Assembly: GCA_021783235.1 (NCBI GenBank) | Contig: JAJXUD010000034.1 | Span: 1-47,295, forward strand | Direction of reading: 5' to 3' | Length of the DNA: 47,295 nt | From: Myxococcales bacterium | Lineage (GTDB): Bacteria > Myxococcota > Myxococcia > Myxococcales > JAKAPL01 | Part shown: one piece after another, positions 478 to 10,811 of the stretch | Position numbering within the stretch: position 1 is the stretch's first letter | How the letters are laid out: each line of letters opens with the position of its first letter | Position numbers and translations under genes: made by a program | Notes under the pieces: generated by a model | What the model saw: the letters and a program-made list of their open reading frames with translations, nothing else | Told to the model about the DNA's origin: nothing | Databases searched by the model: none

Positions 478-1884
478 TCAGCGGACGAAGAGGCGGTAGT
501 TCCAGGACGGCGAGTAGGGCGGCTGCGCGGAGGCTTGGCAGGTCCCGCACGAGCTGCCGCACCAGGAGTCGGTGCCGAGCAAGATGTAGGTCCCCGGCCC
601 GGTGGGCGTCGAGCACCAGCGGTCCGCGCCGGTGTCCAGCTGCAGCTCGACGTCCGAGTGCCGGTACTGGTCTGGCATGCTCCCCTGGTTCATTCCCGTG
701 CCGAGGCCGGGCTCGTTGTCGTCCGCGGTGAAGGGCGGATTCGTGACGCCGAGGCGGGTGCAGTCGCCGTTCGGATTGAAGATTCGGTTGGCGATGAGGT
801 TCGTGCCCTGCTGGAGCAGCGGCTCCCAGGCGTAGACGTTGGCGATACTCTGGCTCTTCGGCGAACTCGTCACGACGAAGTTGTTCGAGCCGGTGAAGAA
901 GTCGTTCAGGCGGTGGGCCGGCATCACCCAGTCGCGCCAGCCGATGAGGCTGCCGTCGACGGGGTCCGTGATCTCGATGAGGACGTTCGTGCCGACGACC
1001 AGGCTGGCGGCGGGCGACTTGTAGTCGCCGACGAAGCGATTCTCGAACGTGCCGTACTCGTTCGGGCCCAGCCAGAAGGCGAGGTTCGTCCAGTCGACGA
1101 TGTCACCGTCGGTGGGGACCACGCCCATCACGAAGGTCCAGCCGCCGCTGTCGGTGGTCATGTCGCAGTGGGCCTGGAAGGGCGCGCTGGCGCCCGTGGG
1201 GTCGATCCAGAAGACGCCGTCCTGCCCCGCGCAGGCTGGCGACGCGGCCAGGATCGCCGAGCAGGAGGCGCCGGCGGGGGCGCTCGCGGTGCCCGGGCTG
1301 CACGGCGGCGCGAAGGTGCCGGTGAGGAGCAGCTCGGCGCTGCCGCCCGTGGACGTCGCGAAGGCGATTCCCGAGCGCGGCCCCGGATCGCCCGAGGCGG
1401 GCAGGGTGAAGGTGACCGTGCAGCTCGCCCCGCCGGCGAGGCTGCTGCCGCAGGTCGTCGACCCGACGGCGAAGCCGGCCGGCGCGGTGACGGTGGGGTT
1501 GTTCGCGGGCTGGTCGCCCACGTTCGCGAGGGTCGCGGTCTGCGAGCCGTCGGTCGTGGTCACGCTCCCGAACGACAGCGAGGCCTCCTGCCACTCGAGC
1601 AGCGACGCGACTGGCCCGGTCGCGCCGGTCGGTCCCTGGCCGCCAGTGGCGCCCGTCGCGCCGGTCGATCCCTGGCTGCCGGCGGCCCCCGTCGCGCCGG
1701 TCGGTCCCTGGCTGCCCGCGGCTCCCGTGGCCCCGGTCGGTCCCCGGCTGCCGGCGGATCCGGTGGCGCCCGTCGCGCCGTCGGGACCGGTGGCCCCGGT
1801 CGCGCCTTGCGGGCCGGTGGCGCCGGCGCAGGCGACGCAGAGGCAGAGTGACAGGCTGAGAAGGCTGGTTCGGCGTCCGAGCAT
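478..1884 (-). CDS. Secreted lipoprotein: collagen-like stalk, choice-of-anchor D domain, fibrinogen-like head
   Basis: This 468-residue product starts at an ATG preceded by GAAAGAGG. A signal peptide ends in a lipobox-like VAC at Cys19, although Cys at -3 is unusual. Directly after it come 24 uninterrupted Gly-X-Y triplets (residues 21-92), then an Ig-like choice-of-anchor D/HYDIN-type domain (about 95-192, motif [22 protein letters not shown]). The C-terminal half resembles a fibrinogen C-terminal domain (about 205-468), with [23 protein letters not shown] and paired cysteines near the end. The architecture is a lipid-anchored rigid stalk presenting a ligand-binding head, so an adhesion or recognition role at the cell surface is inferred. 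The triplets rarely contain Pro, and stability would depend on Thr/Ala/Gln-rich positions, as in other bacterial collagens. It is followed immediately by the TcmP remnant. Confidence 0.85.
1609..1824 (-). repeat. Collagen-coding tandem repeat, 36-bp higher-order unit
   Basis: The 72-codon Gly-X-Y stretch is built partly from a 12-residue (36-bp) unit of the type [12 protein letters not shown]. About four copies of it run from residue 46 to residue 92, with small variations. Such in-frame repeats can change copy number by slippage or recombination, so stalk length may differ between strains. Confidence 0.85.
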
Positions 1885-2051
1885 GGCGGCCTCTTTCGGA
1901 GAAAAAAACGTCGGCTCTCTTACCTTCGTGGTCCGGCCCTTGGCAAGCGACCGCCCGCTCGGCGCAGAGCCTCGGCGCACGTCGACCCGAGCCGGCGCGA
2001 AGGCCGGTCCCAGCTGGTCGCCGCGCTCGCCCCCCCCGCCCCGCGAGGGCC

Positions 2052-4598
2052 TTACGGCAGGTACATCCGCATCAGCGCGTGGCCGCCGGTGGCGCCCGAG
2101 GGGGTCGGCTGGACGATGCCGCCCACGGTGGCGCCCGTGGCCCAGGTGCCGTCGACGAAGTCGGTGCGGCTCGGGAAGCCGAGGCCGACGAGGACGGTGG
2201 CGGGCAGGTCCGCCATCTCGCCGGGCTCGCTCGTCACGATGTTCTGGCGGACGTTCGGGCCGAGGGCGATGAGCGGCACGTGGCGGGAGCTGGTGGGGCC
2301 GTAGAAGTCGGCGCCGGGATCGTCGATCTCGGTGGCGCCGCGGCTCGTGACGAGCACGAGGTTGCCGGCGGCGGCGGCGACGACCTGCCGGAGCGTCTGG
2401 CCGAGGGCGGCGAGCTCGCCCACCGCCGCGGGGCTGTCCCGGTTGGCGGTCCGCTTCCCGCCGAAGGAGACCACGGCGAGCGAGCGGCCGTGGCCCGAGA
2501 GGAAGGCGCCGAGCGCCGAGGCGATGCCGCTCTGATCCGGCTGGGCGTTCACGTCGATGGACGACGGGTCGACGTGGAGGAGCTGGTAGTCGGGCTGGCC
2601 GATGAAGGCCGTCGAGAAGCCCTGGGCCTTGGCGGCGTCGAAGATCGACGGCACGCCGAACGAGCCGGCGTTGCGCCACGCCTGGTAGCCGGCCTGATCG
2701 GAGACGAAGCCCGGGGGCGGCGGCATGGCGAGGAAGCCGAAGCCGGGGGCGGCCTCCTGGGTCGGGTCGTCCTCGGCGAAGGGGACCCAGTCGAGCGAGA
2801 CGGGGTAGCCGCCCGTCAGCAGCTCGTACTCGTTCACCGGCACGTCGCGGTAACGGTTCCAGAAGTGGTCGTAGACGGTCCCCTGCGCCATCAGGTCGAG
2901 GAACGGCTGCGCCGCCTCGCGCATCCCGCCGGTCCGGTCGTTGAAGATCTCGTCGTAGTAGAGCCCGTCGATGTCGACGATCACCGCGGAGTTCGCGGGC
3001 GCGACGTTCGGGCTGCCGTCCCAGCCGGAGCTCGCGAGGACGGTCGGCTGGCTCGTCGTCATGTCGCTGGGCTGCGGGATGGTCTCGCCCGGCTGCCCGG
3101 CGAAGGCCGCCATCACCGGCGCCCCCTCCTGGGTGGTCAGGTAGCCCGCGCCGAGCGCCCACATGGCGGTGGCGGCGACGTCGGCCTGCTGGACGGCGTG
3201 GGGCAGCATGACGCCCTTCTTGAAGGCGGGGCCCGAGAAGATGACCGGGACGTAGAGCTCCTCCTCGGAGAGGCCGCCGTGCCGGCCGTAGGGGTTGCCG
3301 GCGTGCTCCTTGAAGGGGCCGGGCTGCGTGTTCTTCCCGTCCACCTGGTTCAAGGTCCAGTTCGGGGCGGCGAAGACGAGGATGTCGGCCTGGTGGGGGC
3401 CGTCGATCCGGTAGTCGTGGAAGCGGCGGGTGCCCATGGCGCCGTCGAAGGTGACGGTGCGGGTGGGGTCGACGCCTTGCAGCTGGCCCGACTGGACGAC
3501 CTCGAGGAGCGCGTGGGTGACCTGCTGTTGCTGGGAGGCGCCCGCCGCGGTGCCGGCGCCCGGCGTGTGGGCGAAGATCGGCGTGTCGCCGTCGTCCTGG
3601 AGGATCACGTAGGAGTTGCCGTCGATGCCGAGCGAGGGGCCCAGCTTGGCGACGAGCGCGCCCATCTGGCCGTCGGCGGGCGTGGCGTCGCCTCCGTTCG
3701 CCGGGTGGCTGCCCAGCACGGCCTGGTCGTAGCTGTTGGTCTTGCCGTGATCGAGCGTGAAGACGAAGTTGGTCCGGTCGAGGAGCCCCTTCGAGTCGAG
3801 CGCCTGGATGACGTCGCCGATGGCGTCGTCGTAGTCCTCGATGACCTTGACCACCTCGGCGCCGATCTCGCCCGTGGGGTTGTTGTCCACGGCGGGGAAG
3901 TCCCAGAAGTACATGTAGCGCGGGATCTGGTCGACCGAGTGGGCCTGGATGAAGAGCGCCGCGTCGCGGATGGTGAAGTGCGTGGTGGTCTCGCCGGGAT
4001 TGCCCGGGCCGTCGAGCTGGTAGCTGCCTCCGTTGACGAGGGCGTCGGGGTACTGGAGCAGCCCGATGAGCATCGCCGAGCCGACGTCCCAGTTGACCTG
4101 GATGCCGTAGAGCGTCGCGCCGCCAATGGTGAAGTGGACGTCGTCGGCGCCGAGCTCGAAGGGCGGAAGCTGGCCGAAGTACGAGGGGTGGATGCCGAGC
4201 CGATGCGCGGCCTGGTAGACGCAGTCGCCGCGGGTCCGCAGCGGGTTGTCCGGGTAGAGCGCGTAGTCGCCGAGGCCGAGGCTGCCGAAGCTGACGGCGC
4301 TCGTGAGCTTCGGCCGGTCGACGCGGGCGTTGCCGGGGACGCCGCTGCCCTCGGGGAACTGGGCGGTCAGGGTCGCGTAGTTGCCCTGGTTCGAGTGGGT
4401 GGGCACCTGCACGCGCGAGTAGCCGAAGACGCCGTGGGCGATGAGCGACTTGATGTTGGGGGCATTCGCCTCCCAGAGCCCTTGCAGGCCGTGGTCGTCG
4501 ATCTCGATCTGGATGACGTTCTGCGGCGGCGGCGGCGGGGCCGAGCCGATGCAGGCGGTGGAGAGCAGGAAGAGCGAGAGGGCGAGGTGACGGCGCAT
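2052..4598 (-). CDS. Lipoprotein with two tandem alkaline-phosphatase-superfamily domains
   Basis: The start is set at an internal ATG with GGAGG five bases upstream; the product has 848 residues. A signal peptide ends at STAC (Cys16), followed by a proline run. Domain one (about 27-500) has the layout of type I phosphodiesterase/nucleotide pyrophosphatases. It shows an early acidic pair (D34-D35), PTHSN at 66-70 as the nucleophile region, DHG at 283-285 and [14 protein letters not shown] from 439, the usual metal ligands. Domain two (about 538-835) begins again with [10 protein letters not shown] but lacks the PTHS equivalent and has SRGATEID where DHG is expected. It keeps a C-terminal [13 protein letters not shown] infer one catalytic and one degenerate domain acting on phospho- or sulfo-esters outside the inner membrane. 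The substrate cannot be told. Confidence 0.85.
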
Positions 4599-5553: not shown

Positions 5554-5685
5554 TCGGCCGCACCCTAGCAAAGCGGCCGGCGCCGGCGAAGGGGCGGTCC
5601 CCGCCGAGCCGTCATCCCGGGGGCGATGCCGCCGGCGAGAAGGTCGGTCGCCGCGGGCCCCGTTCGGCTCTTTGGTCAGGCCGCG

Positions 5686-5714
5686 TGGAAACCTTCCCCG
5701 CGGCCTGTTATCCT
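5686..5714 (+). promoter_or_regulatory. Possible promoter of the TPR-zincin lipoprotein gene
   Basis: TGGAAA and TATCCT are separated by 17 bp, and each matches four of six positions of the sigma70 consensus. The -10 box ends 11 bases before the proposed GTG start, leaving a leader of only a few bases. No Shine-Dalgarno sequence is present. Confidence 0.4.
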
Positions 5715-5725
5715 CGCGGCTGGCC

Positions 5726-6985
5726 GTGAGACTCCTGCGCACACTCGCCCCCGGCTGCCTGGCCGTCCTCGCGCTCGGCTGCACGAGGCCGGCCCCCGCC
5801 GCTCGCGGTGGGGCCCTCGAGGCGCGGGCCCCATCGGGCGCGTCGAACGCCCCGCGGGTCTCGCTCGCCGGATCGCCTCCCAAGCCGGCGCCGAAGGCCG
5901 CGCCGTCGGGTCGGGTCGAGCCGGGCACGCCAGCCTGCCAGGCCAAGGGCGATCTGCTCGAGGCCTCGGAGCGGGCCTTCGACGAGAAGAAGTACGACCT
6001 CGCGCTCGGCTGCGCGGAGGAGGCGCTGCTCGACGACCCCGAGAACGCGGCCGCCGAGCACGAGCGGGCGGCGGCGCTGGTGGCCCTCTCGCGCTTCGAC
6101 GACGCGCGGGTCGCCTACGCCCACGCGCTCGCCCTCGACCCCGACGACCCCGAGATCCTGGTCGGCGCCGCCGACCTCTTCCTCTCTCACGGCGGCGGCC
6201 ACGAGGCGGACGAGATCGCCCTCGCGTACGCGCGCCGGGGCGAGAAGCGGGCCCGTCGCCGCCGGCCCGACCTGGTCGAGCAGCTCGAGCTGCTCCAGGG
6301 GATGGCGCTGAACGACCTCGGCCGCTCCGCCGAGGCGCTCGAGAAGCTCGATTCGGCGCTCGAGCGCGAGCCGAAGGATCTGGACGCCCGCTACGAGCGC
6401 GGCTCGGCGCTCTTCGAGCTCTGCCGCTTCGCGGAGGCGAAGGTCGAGCTCTCGAAGGTGGTCCACGAGCTCCCCGACGACGCCTTCGCCCAGCACGAGC
6501 TCGGCCTCGTCCTCGAGCGGCTCGGCGAGGCGCGCGAGGCCCACGGGCACCTCGCGCGGGCGACCCAGCTCGACCCCAAGGGTTTTCCGCCGCCGGTGGC
6601 GGTGGACCGGGCGGAGTTCGAGCGGATGGTGCGGGCGGAGATCGCCGCGCTGCCCTCGGAGCTGCGGCGCGATCTCGGGGCGGTGCCGGTGACCGTCCAG
6701 GAGACGCCGGAGCTCTCGGACCTCACCGTCGACGACCCGCCGCTCTCGCCGACCATCCTCGGCCTCTTCCGGGGCGACCCGATCCCCTCGGCCTGCTCCG
6801 CGGCGACGGGGGCCGCCGACGGCGGCGAGGAGCAGCGGGCCATCGTGATCTACCGCACGAACCTCCTCCGGGTGGTGCAGAGCAAGGACGAGCTCGAGAA
6901 GCAGGTCCGCATCACGCTGCTCCACGAGCTCGGCCACCTGCGGGGAGCCGACGACGACGAGCTGCGGCTCGAGGGGCTCGAGTAG
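5726..6985 (+). CDS. Lipoprotein with TPR repeats and a C-terminal minimal zincin (Zincin_1-like) domain
   Basis: I chose the GTG that places a clean lipoprotein signal at the N-terminus (LAVLALGC, Cys19), giving 419 residues. Longer in-frame starts only add sequence ahead of the signal. Residues about 70-290 are Ala/Glu-rich helical pairs of TPR type, such as ALDPDDPEILVGAADL and ALEREPKDLDARYERG. The last 120 residues match the pattern of the small Zincin_1 metallopeptidase family: FERMVRAEIAALPSELR, then LGLFRG, IVIYR, and VRITLLHELGHLRGADDDEL with the HExxH motif at 400-404. Free-standing family members are about 120 residues, so this is a fusion to a TPR scaffold. Protease activity is inferred from the motif only. 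The domain ends very soon after HELGH, as is usual for this family. Confidence 0.8.
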   Translation: MRLLRTLAPGCLAVLALGCTRPAPAARGGALEARAPSGASNAPRVSLAGSPPKPAPKAAPSGRVEPGTPACQAKGDLLEASERAFDEKKYDLALGCAEEALLDDPENAAAEHERAAALVALSRFDDARVAYAHALALDPDDPEILVGAADLFLSHGGGHEADEIALAYARRGEKRARRRRPDLVEQLELLQGMALNDLGRSAEALEKLDSALEREPKDLDARYERGSALFELCRFAEAKVELSKVVHELPDDAFAQHELGLVLERLGEAREAHGHLARATQLDPKGFPPPVAVDRAEFERMVRAEIAALPSELRRDLGAVPVTVQETPELSDLTVDDPPLSPTILGLFRGDPIPSACSAATGAADGGEEQRAIVIYRTNLLRVVQSKDELEKQVRITLLHELGHLRGADDDELRLEGLE

Positions 6986-7043: not shown

Positions 7044-7619
7044 GTGCGGCGCCTCGCGCACCTCTTCTTCGTCTCACTCGTCTCCCTCGCCCAGGGCTGC
7101 GGCCGGGACACGGGGCGCTGGAACGGCGTCGTGCGGGCGGGCGCCGCGCGGACGACGCCCCAGGGCGACGTCCTCTCCGACAGCGCGCTCAAGCGCTACC
7201 TGCCCGCCACGGTGCTCGGCCGGCCGGGCGAGGCGCCGCAGGGGAGCGTCACCCGCATCGGGTCGCGCTCGCTCGCCGAGGCCACCCGCAGCTACCGGGC
7301 GCCGGGGGCCGACCTCGAGGCCGAGATCAAGCTCGCCGACGCCCGCTACGAGCCGCGCGCCACCGAGGCGATCCGATCGCTCGCCGGGGCCGACGAGCCG
7401 GACGACGACGATGCCGCCGAGCGGCTCGTGCTCCCGGGCGCCATCGGCTACGCGCGCTTCGATCAGGGCGAGCGGACGGCCCAGGCGCAGGTGGTCATCG
7501 GCGGCCGGTTCATCGCGAGCGCGACGGTTCAGCCGGCCAAGGGGGCCGAGGAGGCGGTCGCGGCCCTCCGCTCCATCGACACGCTCGCCATCTCGCGGCT
7601 CGCGGCCCAGTCGGACTGA
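7044..7619 (+). CDS. Small lipoprotein of unknown function
   Basis: This 191-residue product starts at a GTG with GGAGAG just upstream. The signal peptide ends in LAQGC (Cys19). The mature part is charged and has no motif I recognise. A conserved-looking core (AIGYARFDQGERTAQAQVVI followed by GGRFIAS) suggests a compact alpha/beta domain, and an acidic run (DEPDDDDAAE) precedes it. The stop codon overlaps the next start by one base (TGATG), so this protein and the Cys-array protein are almost certainly co-translated and may act together. Confidence 0.75.
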   Translation: MRRLAHLFFVSLVSLAQGCGRDTGRWNGVVRAGAARTTPQGDVLSDSALKRYLPATVLGRPGEAPQGSVTRIGSRSLAEATRSYRAPGADLEAEIKLADARYEPRATEAIRSLAGADEPDDDDAAERLVLPGAIGYARFDQGERTAQAQVVIGGRFIASATVQPAKGAEEAVAALRSIDTLAISRLAAQSD

Positions 7620-8116
7620 TGGCGGTCCAGCGGCGAGAGGCAGAGGTCTCGGAGGAGCGGGGCTCCGCCGGCCGGCGGCTCGAGGCGTCGGGCCGCGGCG
7701 CCCGGTCGGCGCGCGAGTTCCAGCTCGCGCTCGAGGCGCTGACGCGCGAGTACTCCGAGGGCGAGAGCACGCACGGCTGCCACGGCTGCAAGGGCTGCGA
7801 GCGCTGCGCCTCGTGCATGTTCTGCGAGGGCTGCGAGTCCTGCTACCGCTGCACCCACTGCCGCGGCTGCCGCGAGTGCAGCCACTGCTCGCATTGCCGG
7901 GACTGCGTCTCGTGCCACGGGTCGGCCTACTGCGAGCAGTCCGAGCTCTGCTCGGGGTCGAGCTACCTCGTCCTCTGCCAGAGCTGCTCCGACTGCACCT
8001 ACTGCTTCGGCTGCGTCGGTCTCGTCCGCAAGGACTTCCACATCCTGAACCAGCCCTACAGCCGGCAGGAGTACTTCGAGATCGTCGCGCGGCTTCGCCG
8101 CGAGCTGGGCCTCTGA
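7619..8116 (+). CDS. Cysteine-array protein, 23 Cys in strict triplet register
   Basis: The product has 165 residues. After a charged helical N-terminus (1-50), Cys occurs at residue 54 and then every third residue for 16 positions to residue 99. It occurs again at 105, 111, 120, 123, 126, 129 and 132, all in the same modulo-3 register. Gly, Ser, His and Arg fill the gaps. The C-terminus holds VGLVRKDFHILNQPYSRQEY, a segment I recall at the end of other bacterial Cys-rich proteins, some of them carrying misleading CaiB/BaiF-type names. No signal peptide is seen, so it is probably cytoplasmic unless exported with its neighbour. The pattern suits multi-metal (Zn, Cu or Fe-S) binding or a narrow disulfide-stacked solenoid; the sequence cannot distinguish these. 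Translational coupling to the upstream lipoprotein gene is evident. Confidence 0.8.
   Translation: MAVQRREAEVSEERGSAGRRLEASGRGARSAREFQLALEALTREYSEGESTHGCHGCKGCERCASCMFCEGCESCYRCTHCRGCRECSHCSHCRDCVSCHGSAYCEQSELCSGSSYLVLCQSCSDCTYCFGCVGLVRKDFHILNQPYSRQEYFEIVARLRRELGL
7778..8014 (+). repeat. Nine-base periodic TGC array encoding CxxCxxC
   Basis: TGC codons recur every nine bases from 7778 through the sixteenth Cys at 7913-7915. Further in-register TGC codons continue to 8014. All 23 cysteines use TGC. Intervening codons vary, so this is a protein-level periodicity and not a recent DNA duplication. Confidence 0.85.
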
Positions 8117-8250: not shown

Positions 8251-8709
8251 ATGCTCGTCGCGGAGAGCCACCGGGGACGCACGCTGCTCTTGCGGCTCGA
8301 CCGCAAAGACCTCCTCCACGACCGGATCCTCGCCGTCTGCCGCGAGCGCGGCGTCCGCTGCGCCCGGGTGACCGGCCTCGGCGCCTTCGAGGAGGCCGAG
8401 CTCGTCGAGTACGACCAGGCGAAGAAGGTCTACAAGCCGGCGCAGAGCTTTCGCGCGGCGATGGAGCTCTTGTCGCTGCAGGGGAACGTGAGCGAGAAGG
8501 ACGGGCAGCCGTTCATCCACCTGCACGCCGCGGTCTCGCGCGAGCGCGAGGATCAGGCGCGGCGCGTCGAGGTGCTGGGCGGGCACCTGAACCGGGCGGT
8601 CGTCTTCGCGGCGGAGATCACGCTCGACTGCTACGACGATCTGCGGCTCCACCGGCTGCCCGACGAGCCCACCGGCCTCTCGCTCTGGGGGAGGTGCGAG
8701 GAGGGGTAG
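8251..8709 (+). CDS. PPC/DUF296 domain protein
   Basis: The 152-residue product starts at an ATG preceded by GGAGGAGAGG. It matches the PPC (DUF296, PD1-like) fold: an N-terminal strand-rich half with RVTGLGAFEEAELVEY, then FIHLHAAVSRE, GGHLNRAVVFAAEI and a short basic tail. The HLHA histidines and the GGHL turn are family hallmarks and often bind a metal in bacterial members. In plants the domain is joined to AT-hooks; here it stands alone, and its bacterial role is not known. It is followed 80 bp downstream by the helicase gene but with separate start signals. Confidence 0.85.
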   Translation: MLVAESHRGRTLLLRLDRKDLLHDRILAVCRERGVRCARVTGLGAFEEAELVEYDQAKKVYKPAQSFRAAMELLSLQGNVSEKDGQPFIHLHAAVSREREDQARRVEVLGGHLNRAVVFAAEITLDCYDDLRLHRLPDEPTGLSLWGRCEEG

Positions 8710-8789
8710 GGGCGACGGGGGCCCCGGGGGCTCTTTCTGAAAGCGCAAGCTGGTCTCTCTTCGCGGCGGCGTGGTACCCGTCTCGGGAG

Positions 8790-10811
8790 ATGGCGCGCCT
8801 CGACCTCGGCAAGCTGAATCCACCGCAGCGCGAGGCGGTGCTGCACGGCGAGGGGCCGGTCCTGGTCCTCGCCGGGGCGGGCAGCGGCAAGACGCGCGTG
8901 ATCTCGTACCGGATCGCCCGGCTGCTCGGGGCCGGCGTCCCCCCGGACGCGATCCTCGCGATGACCTTCACGAACAAGGCCGCCGGCGAGATGCGCGAGC
9001 GGGTGGCGGGGCTCGTCGGACCGCGCTCGAAGGGGCTGCCGCGCATCGGGACCTTCCACGCCTTCGGCCTCACGCTCGTGCGAGAGCAGTCGCGCCGGCT
9101 CGGCTTCCCGGGCCGGGTCGCCATCGCCGATGGCTCGGACCAGTCGCAGATCGTGCGGCGGGCGCTGCGCGACGTCCGGATCGACGACCGCAAGTTCGAC
9201 CTCTGGCGCGTCCTCTCGGTGATCTCGCGCGCGAAGGGCGAGGGGCGCGCGCCGCAGCCGAAGCCGGAGGGGCTCGGGGACGACTACGACCTCATCGCGA
9301 GCCTCGTCTTCGAGCGCTACGAGCGGGCGCTGCGCGCCATGGGAATGGTGGACTTCGACGACCTCATCGGGCTGCCGGTGAAGCTGCTCGGGGAGGATCC
9401 GGGGCTGCTCGCCGCGACGAAGCGCCGCTTCCGCCACGTCCTCGTCGACGAGTTCCAGGACACGAGCGCCGCGCAGCTTCGGCTGCTGCGGCTCGTCTCC
9501 CCCGATTCGGGGAACGTCTGCGCGGTGGGCGACGACGACCAGTCGATCTACGGCTGGCGAGGGGCCGAGATCTCGAACATCCTCGAGTTCGAGCGCCACT
9601 TCCCCGGCGCGGTGGCGATCCGGCTCACGCAGAACTACCGCTCGACGGGCGCGATCCTCGCCTGCGCCAACGCCGTCATCCGCGAGAACCAGGCGCGCCG
9701 GCCGAAGGAGCTCTGGACCGACCGCGGCGCGGGCGAGCCCGTGCAGCTCGTGACCTTGCCGGGCGAGGAGGAGGAGGCGCGCTTCGTCGCCGAGCGGATC
9801 GACGAGCTGCGCGGCCAGGGGCGGGCCCTCGACGACCTCGCGATCCTCTTCCGCACGAACGCGCAGAGCCGCCCCCTCGAGGAGGCGCTGCGCGAGCGGG
9901 CCATCCCCTACGACGTCGTCGGCGGCCCCGCCTTCTTCGACCGCAAGGACGTGCGCGACCTCGTCGCCTTCCTGAAGCTCGTCGCGAACCCGGAGGACGA
10001 GGTCTCGCTCCTTCGGATCGTCAACGTGCCCGCCCGCGGCATCGGCGAGGCCTCCGTGGAGAAGCTCTCGGCCTTCGCGCTCGAGCGGGGGCTTCCGGTG
10101 GGCGAGGCCTTCCGCCGGGCCCGCGAGGTCGAGGGGCTCGGCCCCGCCGCCGCCCGGGTCGAGGGCTTCCTCGCGCTGCTCGAGGAGCTGCGGGGCCTCT
10201 TCGGGAGCCACGGGCTCGGCGCCGCCGCCCGTGCGCTCGTCGACCGCGTCGGCCTCCGCGCGCCCGCGGAGGAGGGACCGGCCCTGGCGAAGGCGGGGGA
10301 GGGGGCGGGCCCCCGGGCCGACGCCCTCGAGGCCGTCTGCCAGAGCCTCGACAACTACGCCCGCGCGGCCCGCGCTCCCTCGCTCTCCGAGTGGCTCGCC
10401 CGCCTCGCCCTCGACGGCCGCGGCGAGGAGGCCGCTCCCGGCGAGGGCGGCCGCGCGATCCTCATGACGCTCCACGCGGCGAAGGGGCTCGAGTTCCCGG
10501 TCGTCTTCCTCGTGGGCATGGAGGAGGATCTGCTCCCCCACGGCGGCATGCAGGGGCAGCCGCGCGATCTCGACGAGGAACGGCGGCTCTGTTACGTGGG
10601 GATCACCCGGGCCCGCGACCGGCTCTACCTGACGCGCGCCGCCGCGCGGCAGAAGCGCGGCCAGCGAATTCCGCGCACGCCCTCGCGCTTTCTGGCGCCG
10701 CTGCCCGCCGAGCACGTGCAGATCGTCGACCTCGCCGCCCGCGCGACCCCGGACGCCGCCTCCTCGAAGTTCTGGGAGCTCGTCGGGATGTCTCCCGACC
10801 CCGAGGCCTGA
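8790..10811 (+). CDS. UvrD/Rep-family superfamily 1A DNA helicase
   Basis: The 673-residue start is placed at MARLDLGKLNPPQREAV, which begins exactly where Rep/PcrA proteins do. The in-frame upstream sequence lies inside the previous gene. All SF1A motifs are present: Q-motif and Walker A (LAGAGSGKT, 28-35), Ia (TFTNKAAGEM), II (VLVDEFQDT), III (GDDDQSIYGWRGAE), IV (LTQNYRST), V (TLHAAKGLEFPVVFL) and VI (CYVGITRARDRLYLT). The length equals that of E. coli Rep and is shorter than PcrA/UvrD because little follows motif VI. It translocates 3' to 5' on single-stranded DNA and acts in repair or replication restart; Rep versus UvrD cannot be settled here. A small palindrome, CTTTC-T-GAAAG, lies at 8733-8743. 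Confidence 0.95.
   Translation: MARLDLGKLNPPQREAVLHGEGPVLVLAGAGSGKTRVISYRIARLLGAGVPPDAILAMTFTNKAAGEMRERVAGLVGPRSKGLPRIGTFHAFGLTLVREQSRRLGFPGRVAIADGSDQSQIVRRALRDVRIDDRKFDLWRVLSVISRAKGEGRAPQPKPEGLGDDYDLIASLVFERYERALRAMGMVDFDDLIGLPVKLLGEDPGLLAATKRRFRHVLVDEFQDTSAAQLRLLRLVSPDSGNVCAVGDDDQSIYGWRGAEISNILEFERHFPGAVAIRLTQNYRSTGAILACANAVIRENQARRPKELWTDRGAGEPVQLVTLPGEEEEARFVAERIDELRGQGRALDDLAILFRTNAQSRPLEEALRERAIPYDVVGGPAFFDRKDVRDLVAFLKLVANPEDEVSLLRIVNVPARGIGEASVEKLSAFALERGLPVGEAFRRAREVEGLGPAAARVEGFLALLEELRGLFGSHGLGAAARALVDRVGLRAPAEEGPALAKAGEGAGPRADALEAVCQSLDNYARAARAPSLSEWLARLALDGRGEEAAPGEGGRAILMTLHAAKGLEFPVVFLVGMEEDLLPHGGMQGQPRDLDEERRLCYVGITRARDRLYLTRAAARQKRGQRIPRTPSRFLAPLPAEHVQIVDLAARATPDAASSKFWELVGMSPDPEA

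Follow-up and report, generated by a model that had tools for sequence, protein, structure and literature searches.

A conserved cysteine-array protein of the myxobacterial phylum, predicted to form a thiol-lined beta-solenoid of 12-residue coils

The 47,295-nucleotide stretch of DNA analyzed here (the window) carries a gene for a cysteine-array protein, directly preceded by a gene for a putative lipoprotein (Table 1). A one-base overlap of the two genes had been described in a first-pass annotation, and the junction reads TGATG as expected, the lipoprotein stop codon TGA (7617-7619) sharing one base with the array ATG (7619-7621). Through this TGATG, the lipoprotein gene is translationally coupled to the array gene. 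A TPR protein with a C-terminal zincin-like peptidase domain (PF06262) is encoded at 5672-6985, just upstream of the lipoprotein gene, and a PCC-domain protein (PF03479) at 8251-8709, directly downstream of the array gene; among the loci compared, the PCC-domain gene adjoins the array gene only in the window and in a sister genome. A UvrD/Rep-like helicase gene (8694-10811 in the window) also lies close to the array gene elsewhere, across several families of the order, in differing orientations and with other neighbors changing. On the minus strand, within 478-3162, a predicted protein contains collagen-like repeats.

Table 1. Genes of the pair and elements of the array protein, in window coordinates
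Feature	Position	Strand	Basis
Putative lipoprotein gene, 191 aa, GTG start	7044..7619	+	ORF, profile matches; without Pfam match
Cys-array protein gene, 165 aa, ATG start	7619..8116 (stop included)	+	ORF and homologues
N-terminal amphipathic helix, residues 31-46	7709..7756	+	AF2 helix 31-45/46; conserved F34, L41
Cys array, residues 54-132; predicted 12-residue solenoid coils, every third residue inward	7778..8014	+	Alignment, AF2, period-12 statistics
Six predicted edge strands, residues 68-70, 80-82, 92-94, 104-106, 116-118, 128-130	7820..8008	+	AF2, period-12 statistics
C-terminal cap and helix, residues 133-165 (VGLxxKDFHILNxxxxRxEYF...)	8015..8113	+	Conservation; AF2 confidence low here

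The translated array protein contains 23 Cys in 165 residues. As the annotation had stated, all 23 share a single modulo-3 register, at positions divisible by three, an arrangement whose chance probability is ~3^-22, of the order of 3e-11. Sixteen Cys follow in succession from residue 54 to residue 99; this length of the run had been reported correctly, but it comprises 15 CxxC steps and not 16. Further Cys occupy positions 105, 111, 120, 123, 126, 129, and 132, and the remaining in-register residues are Ser (102, 108, and 114) or Leu (117).

We aligned 98 homologues, each with at least eight Cys upstream of a [FYL][HYF][IVLC][LF]N motif, a filter to which three loci were lost. Some genomes are represented twice in this set (e.g. 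L061 and L093), and the members share ancestry, so that the counts given below are not independent events. Identity to the window protein was about 40-65% where measured. Drift of Cys out of register among homologues, which the annotation had itself named as evidence that would count against it, did not occur: 0 of the 1945 array Cys are off register. Because the close homologues all keep the pattern, in an ungapped array, we conclude that it is under selection. The in-register residues of the 98 sequences are C 1945, S 443, L 196, V 25, M 10, A 10, G 8, T 6, and I 3, showing that Cys is substituted mainly by Ser or Leu, which it is at many columns and in many homologues. The number of array Cys is not fixed and ranges from 13 to 24 per homologue. 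The block that follows the array is a separate conserved element, as had been proposed. Five of its positions (V133, G134, L143, N144, and F153) are identical in 98 of 98 sequences, and D139 (94/98), F140 (97/98), H141 (93/98), and R149 (96/98) are nearly so.

Homologues of the array gene were found in 127 of the 195 searched genomes of the phylum, distant families included, with one per genome, and in 29 of 60 near relatives. Named organisms that carry one include Myxococcus xanthus, Corallococcus, Archangium, and Anaeromyxobacter. The gene is single copy in the window's genome, and each of 24 further-checked genomes gave one full match, accompanied in one case by a weak fragment. Several complete genomes of the phylum lack the gene, which is therefore not essential to the phylum. 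Neither the array protein nor the lipoprotein has a family in Pfam or NCBIfam; over 57 array-family members, these databases returned just two weak zf_RING-like matches (best E 0.067), and they recognized no zinc ribbon or ferredoxin domain in the array protein. No relatives were detected when IMG/VR was scanned with the family profile, and a literature search found no description of this family. A further lead, that proteins of Patescibacteria may finish in a comparable FGCVGLxNKxY block, gained no support from a DNA-pattern test in viral contigs. Together, these data establish the array proteins as a real family of the myxobacterial phylum that is conserved, unannotated, and single copy.

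The outward-facing columns of the array repeat with a period longer than three. With the in-register columns left out, the correlation between outward-column profiles of the 98 homologues was 0.286 at an offset of 12 residues, 0.259 at 24, and 0.167 at 36, and close to zero at 3, 6, 9, 15, and 18. The offset-12 value was reached by 0 of 2000 permutations of the triplet order. The recurring unit is an outward [M/T/S/A]-[F/H/Y] element before an inward residue (MF, TH, SH, AY, SY, and TY), and its second member forms a row, F68, H80, H92, Y104, Y116, and Y128, that opens each of the predicted strands. This F/H/H/Y/Y/Y row is the most conserved outward position of the coil, with a mean entropy of 0.80 bits, compared with 1.3 bits for the neighboring T/S/A and 1.9-2.8 for the rest.

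Structure prediction, which the first-pass annotation had recommended, returned a solenoid. An AF2 model built with 57 natural sequences gave block-mean pLDDT values of 90-98 over residues 61-130 and strands exactly 12 residues apart (pLDDT 93-98); it superseded a first model from 12 sequences that was mixed in quality (five models, 74 to 42). AF2 is known to produce confident but unreal beta-solenoids on near-perfect repeats (PMC11795689), whereas the array is an imperfect repeat that was modeled with a natural alignment. In addition, the period-12 statistic is independent of AlphaFold. Inward residues fall at coil positions 2, 5, 8, and 11 and are Cys, less often Ser or Leu. The same layout, a 12-residue coil with positions 2, 5, 8, and 11 inward, is known from the beetle antifreeze protein (AFP) TmAFP (PMC8038014), which was the top PDB sequence match of the family profile (1ezg/1l1i, E 0.0085), a match largely driven by Cys content. 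Among the Foldseek matches listed, 1l1i had the highest probability (prob 0.66, TMt 0.49, E 0.44), at E-values that were all above 0.08 and thus not significant for any structural match. Leu, which occurs in inward columns 117, 123, 90, and 99, is large for a core of TmAFP width. Based on the period-12 repeat, the model, and the published orientation of TmAFP, the array very probably adopts a beetle-AFP-like beta-solenoid of 12-residue coils. The triplet register would then arise because such a coil points every third residue inward, and the register alone does not point to the metal store or sensor that had been tentatively suggested.

The shared coil and inward register raise the question of ice binding by a bacterial relative of beetle AFP, and a Vibrio phage array is indeed annotated as "insect antifreeze protein." The window protein has no match at the PF02420 gathering cut-off, however, and 0 of 58 genomes contain one above it. 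The T-x-T face is missing, position 1 being F, H, or Y and position 3 variable, and a search of the N terminus for a signal-like hydrophobic stretch found none. We therefore did not file the protein as an AFP, given that it lacks the TxT motif, a Pfam AFP score, and a signal peptide, and we rejected the antifreeze function as extremely unlikely.

A second question is the state of the thiols. In a redox switch or a disulfide-stapled solenoid, coil positions 2 and 8 would be bonded, either constitutively or on oxidation, and the array does share the register of TmAFP and DhbAFP, which are stapled by such 2-8 disulfides (PMC8038014). The homologues fit this poorly. The number of array Cys is odd in 53 of the 98 and even in 45, and would-be partners do not tend to lose Cys together (mean phi 0.02 for the 2-8 pairs, -0.06 for the 5-11 pairs). 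Moreover, no sequence has Cys at residue 117, which is always Leu or Val, yet 42 have Cys at residue 123, and there is no export signal. The odd and even counts, the lack of co-loss, and the absence of a signal-like stretch make obligatory disulfides unlikely, and we regard the stapled or switching solenoid as improbable.

The core thiols would normally be reduced, which would let the core pack compactly and might make it responsive to redox state or metals, a step that we propose with low confidence. The main rival of a scaffold function is a store or sensor for soft metals (Cu(I), Zn, Cd) or sulfane sulfur, in which the inward thiols would bind their ligand inside the solenoid and the lipoprotein would be the envelope partner. 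Several features are consistent with this. Thiols are preferred over plain fillers, with Cys in 1945 of 2646 inward cells and Ala in 10 of 2646; the near absence from the core of Ala, the obvious small filler, suggests that the thiols were selected for more than packing. His-80 and His-92 of the outward row are conserved, a cytoplasmic setting without a signal would keep the thiols reduced, and the lipoprotein is linked to the array gene. On the other hand, Cys is replaced by Ser or Leu at many columns, and the range of 13-24 array Cys makes a fixed metal cluster unlikely. Metallothionein models of Pfam and NCBIfam matched none of the proteins, and among the few neighbors examined no metal-transport or metal-sensor gene was recognized. 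On balance, we judge a store or sensor unlikely, if still a serious competitor. A bolder version, to which we give rather little credence, is a protein-encased thiolate wire, in which the four inward Cys of each coil, stacked on one another, would bind a linear string of soft metal ions, such as Cu(I), or persulfide sulfur. If true, this would be a tubular, ordered store of metal or sulfur, distinct from metallothionein, on which the lipoprotein reports, or which it serves, in some lineages.

We assessed the lipoprotein with its own profile. The profile matched 76 times in the 195 genomes, and in 72 cases the match immediately precedes the array gene, in the same orientation. The exceptions are two copies in one genome (G001), one in another (G076), and a remote second copy in the genome of the window; G001 keeps the lipoprotein though it has no array-gene match. 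Conversely, a lipoprotein match is missing from 55 of the 127 genomes that carry the array gene. The two-component unit that had been suggested thus holds as a genuine neighborhood but not as an obligate pair, and, given both counts, the lipoprotein depends on the array gene much more strongly than the array gene depends on it. The lipobox of the window protein (LAQGC) is weak, and some homologues have better ones (ALGC, LAGC). The array protein and the lipoprotein are predicted to lie in different compartments; as the array protein has no signal-like stretch, it is not obvious that it would meet an exported lipoprotein directly. Distant lipoprotein paralogues (G000 contig C101:34947-35420 (L181), L180, and L182) contain a domain of the LPxxPAGW...D...VGxR type, for which there is no Pfam family.

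In one genus of the order, two loci have a gene of another kind immediately before the array gene, raising the possibility that the array protein is a precursor modified by a radical SAM enzyme into a thioether-type peptide. At one of them (L065:3701-5176, + strand), a radical SAM/SPASM gene was recognized (Pfam SPASM, E 2.9e-7), and the other (L064) has a similar reading frame by sequence. Other loci have unrelated neighbors, and the array protein is long, with conserved caps and without a leader-core layout. Because the neighbor is confined to those two loci, we rejected radical SAM modification as a general explanation; it is very unlikely.

Overall, the data are best explained by a beta-solenoid of the myxobacterial phylum that is cytoplasmic and encoded once per genome, a reading that we consider somewhat better than an even bet. 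The model and the example of TmAFP suggest that the Cys point to the inside and make up a thiol core, that the solenoid is capped by its N-terminal helix and by the C-terminal VGLxxKDFHILN...EYF block, and that the aromatic/His row provides a flat binding face. The specific function that we favor, that of a rigid binding scaffold acting through this conserved face, is put forward tentatively, at rather less than even odds. In part of the phylum, a putative lipoprotein would be expressed together with the array protein, on which it depends genetically without being needed by it. This account offers a structural reason for the Cys-every-third-residue pattern, which phage and plasmid proteins also show, and the presence of the family in Myxococcus xanthus makes it testable there.

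Cys-triplet arrays also occur in Campylobacter, Vibrio, and Flavobacterium phages and in a Campylobacter fetus plasmid. Those of the Campylobacter phages, the C. fetus plasmid, and the Flavobacterium phage (L214, L212, L083, L080, and L082) are long and have N-terminal segments of their own, and array lengths vary among the phage and plasmid proteins as if arrays expand and contract. The window protein matched phrog_15341 with E 5.8e-9, and this match pairs only the two arrays, across residues 50-132. PHROG 15341-type arrays resemble it in their long runs with Cys every third residue and differ in having another N-terminal segment and longer, variable arrays. The KDFHILN...EYF block of the myxobacterial protein is absent from the phage and plasmid arrays read. 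The apparent homology may be compositional, and these arrays may be analogues.

Pentapeptide repeat proteins (e.g. MfpA and AlbG) are likewise narrow right-handed beta-solenoids; the Foldseek matches to them are weak, and the array protein has no match to the family in Pfam. Their repeat is five residues, A(D/N)LXX, in a 20-residue coil, whereas the array has an inward period of 3 and an overall period of 12. A 2026 "Knotted Solenoid" paper (PMC13123833) describes proteins of Brevundimonas that have pentapeptide repeats as their closest relatives without a knot, and we set these proteins aside as a different family. Metallothioneins share the very high Cys density and the cytoplasmic location. 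The array protein differs from them in its strict triplet register, its predicted ordered solenoid, its variable Cys number, and the lack of any sequence match.

The closest comparison is with TmAFP and DhbAFP (PF02420). Unlike these proteins, the array protein can have Cys at every one of the four inward positions, carries additional caps at both termini, and has no signal peptide, and the T-x-T (T-C-T) ice face is replaced by F/H/H/Y/Y/Y at position 1 and variable residues at position 3. The beetle proteins are secreted and 2-8 disulfide-bonded, in contrast to the lack of a signal-like stretch, odd Cys counts, and lack of 2-8 co-loss seen here. By prediction, the two have in common the 12-residue coils, the inward 2/5/8/11 positions, the Cys-rich core, and a stack of short strands, one from each coil. 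The known protein with such a coil is secreted and stapled by disulfides, which would make a thiol-lined solenoid in the reducing cytoplasm an unusual case.
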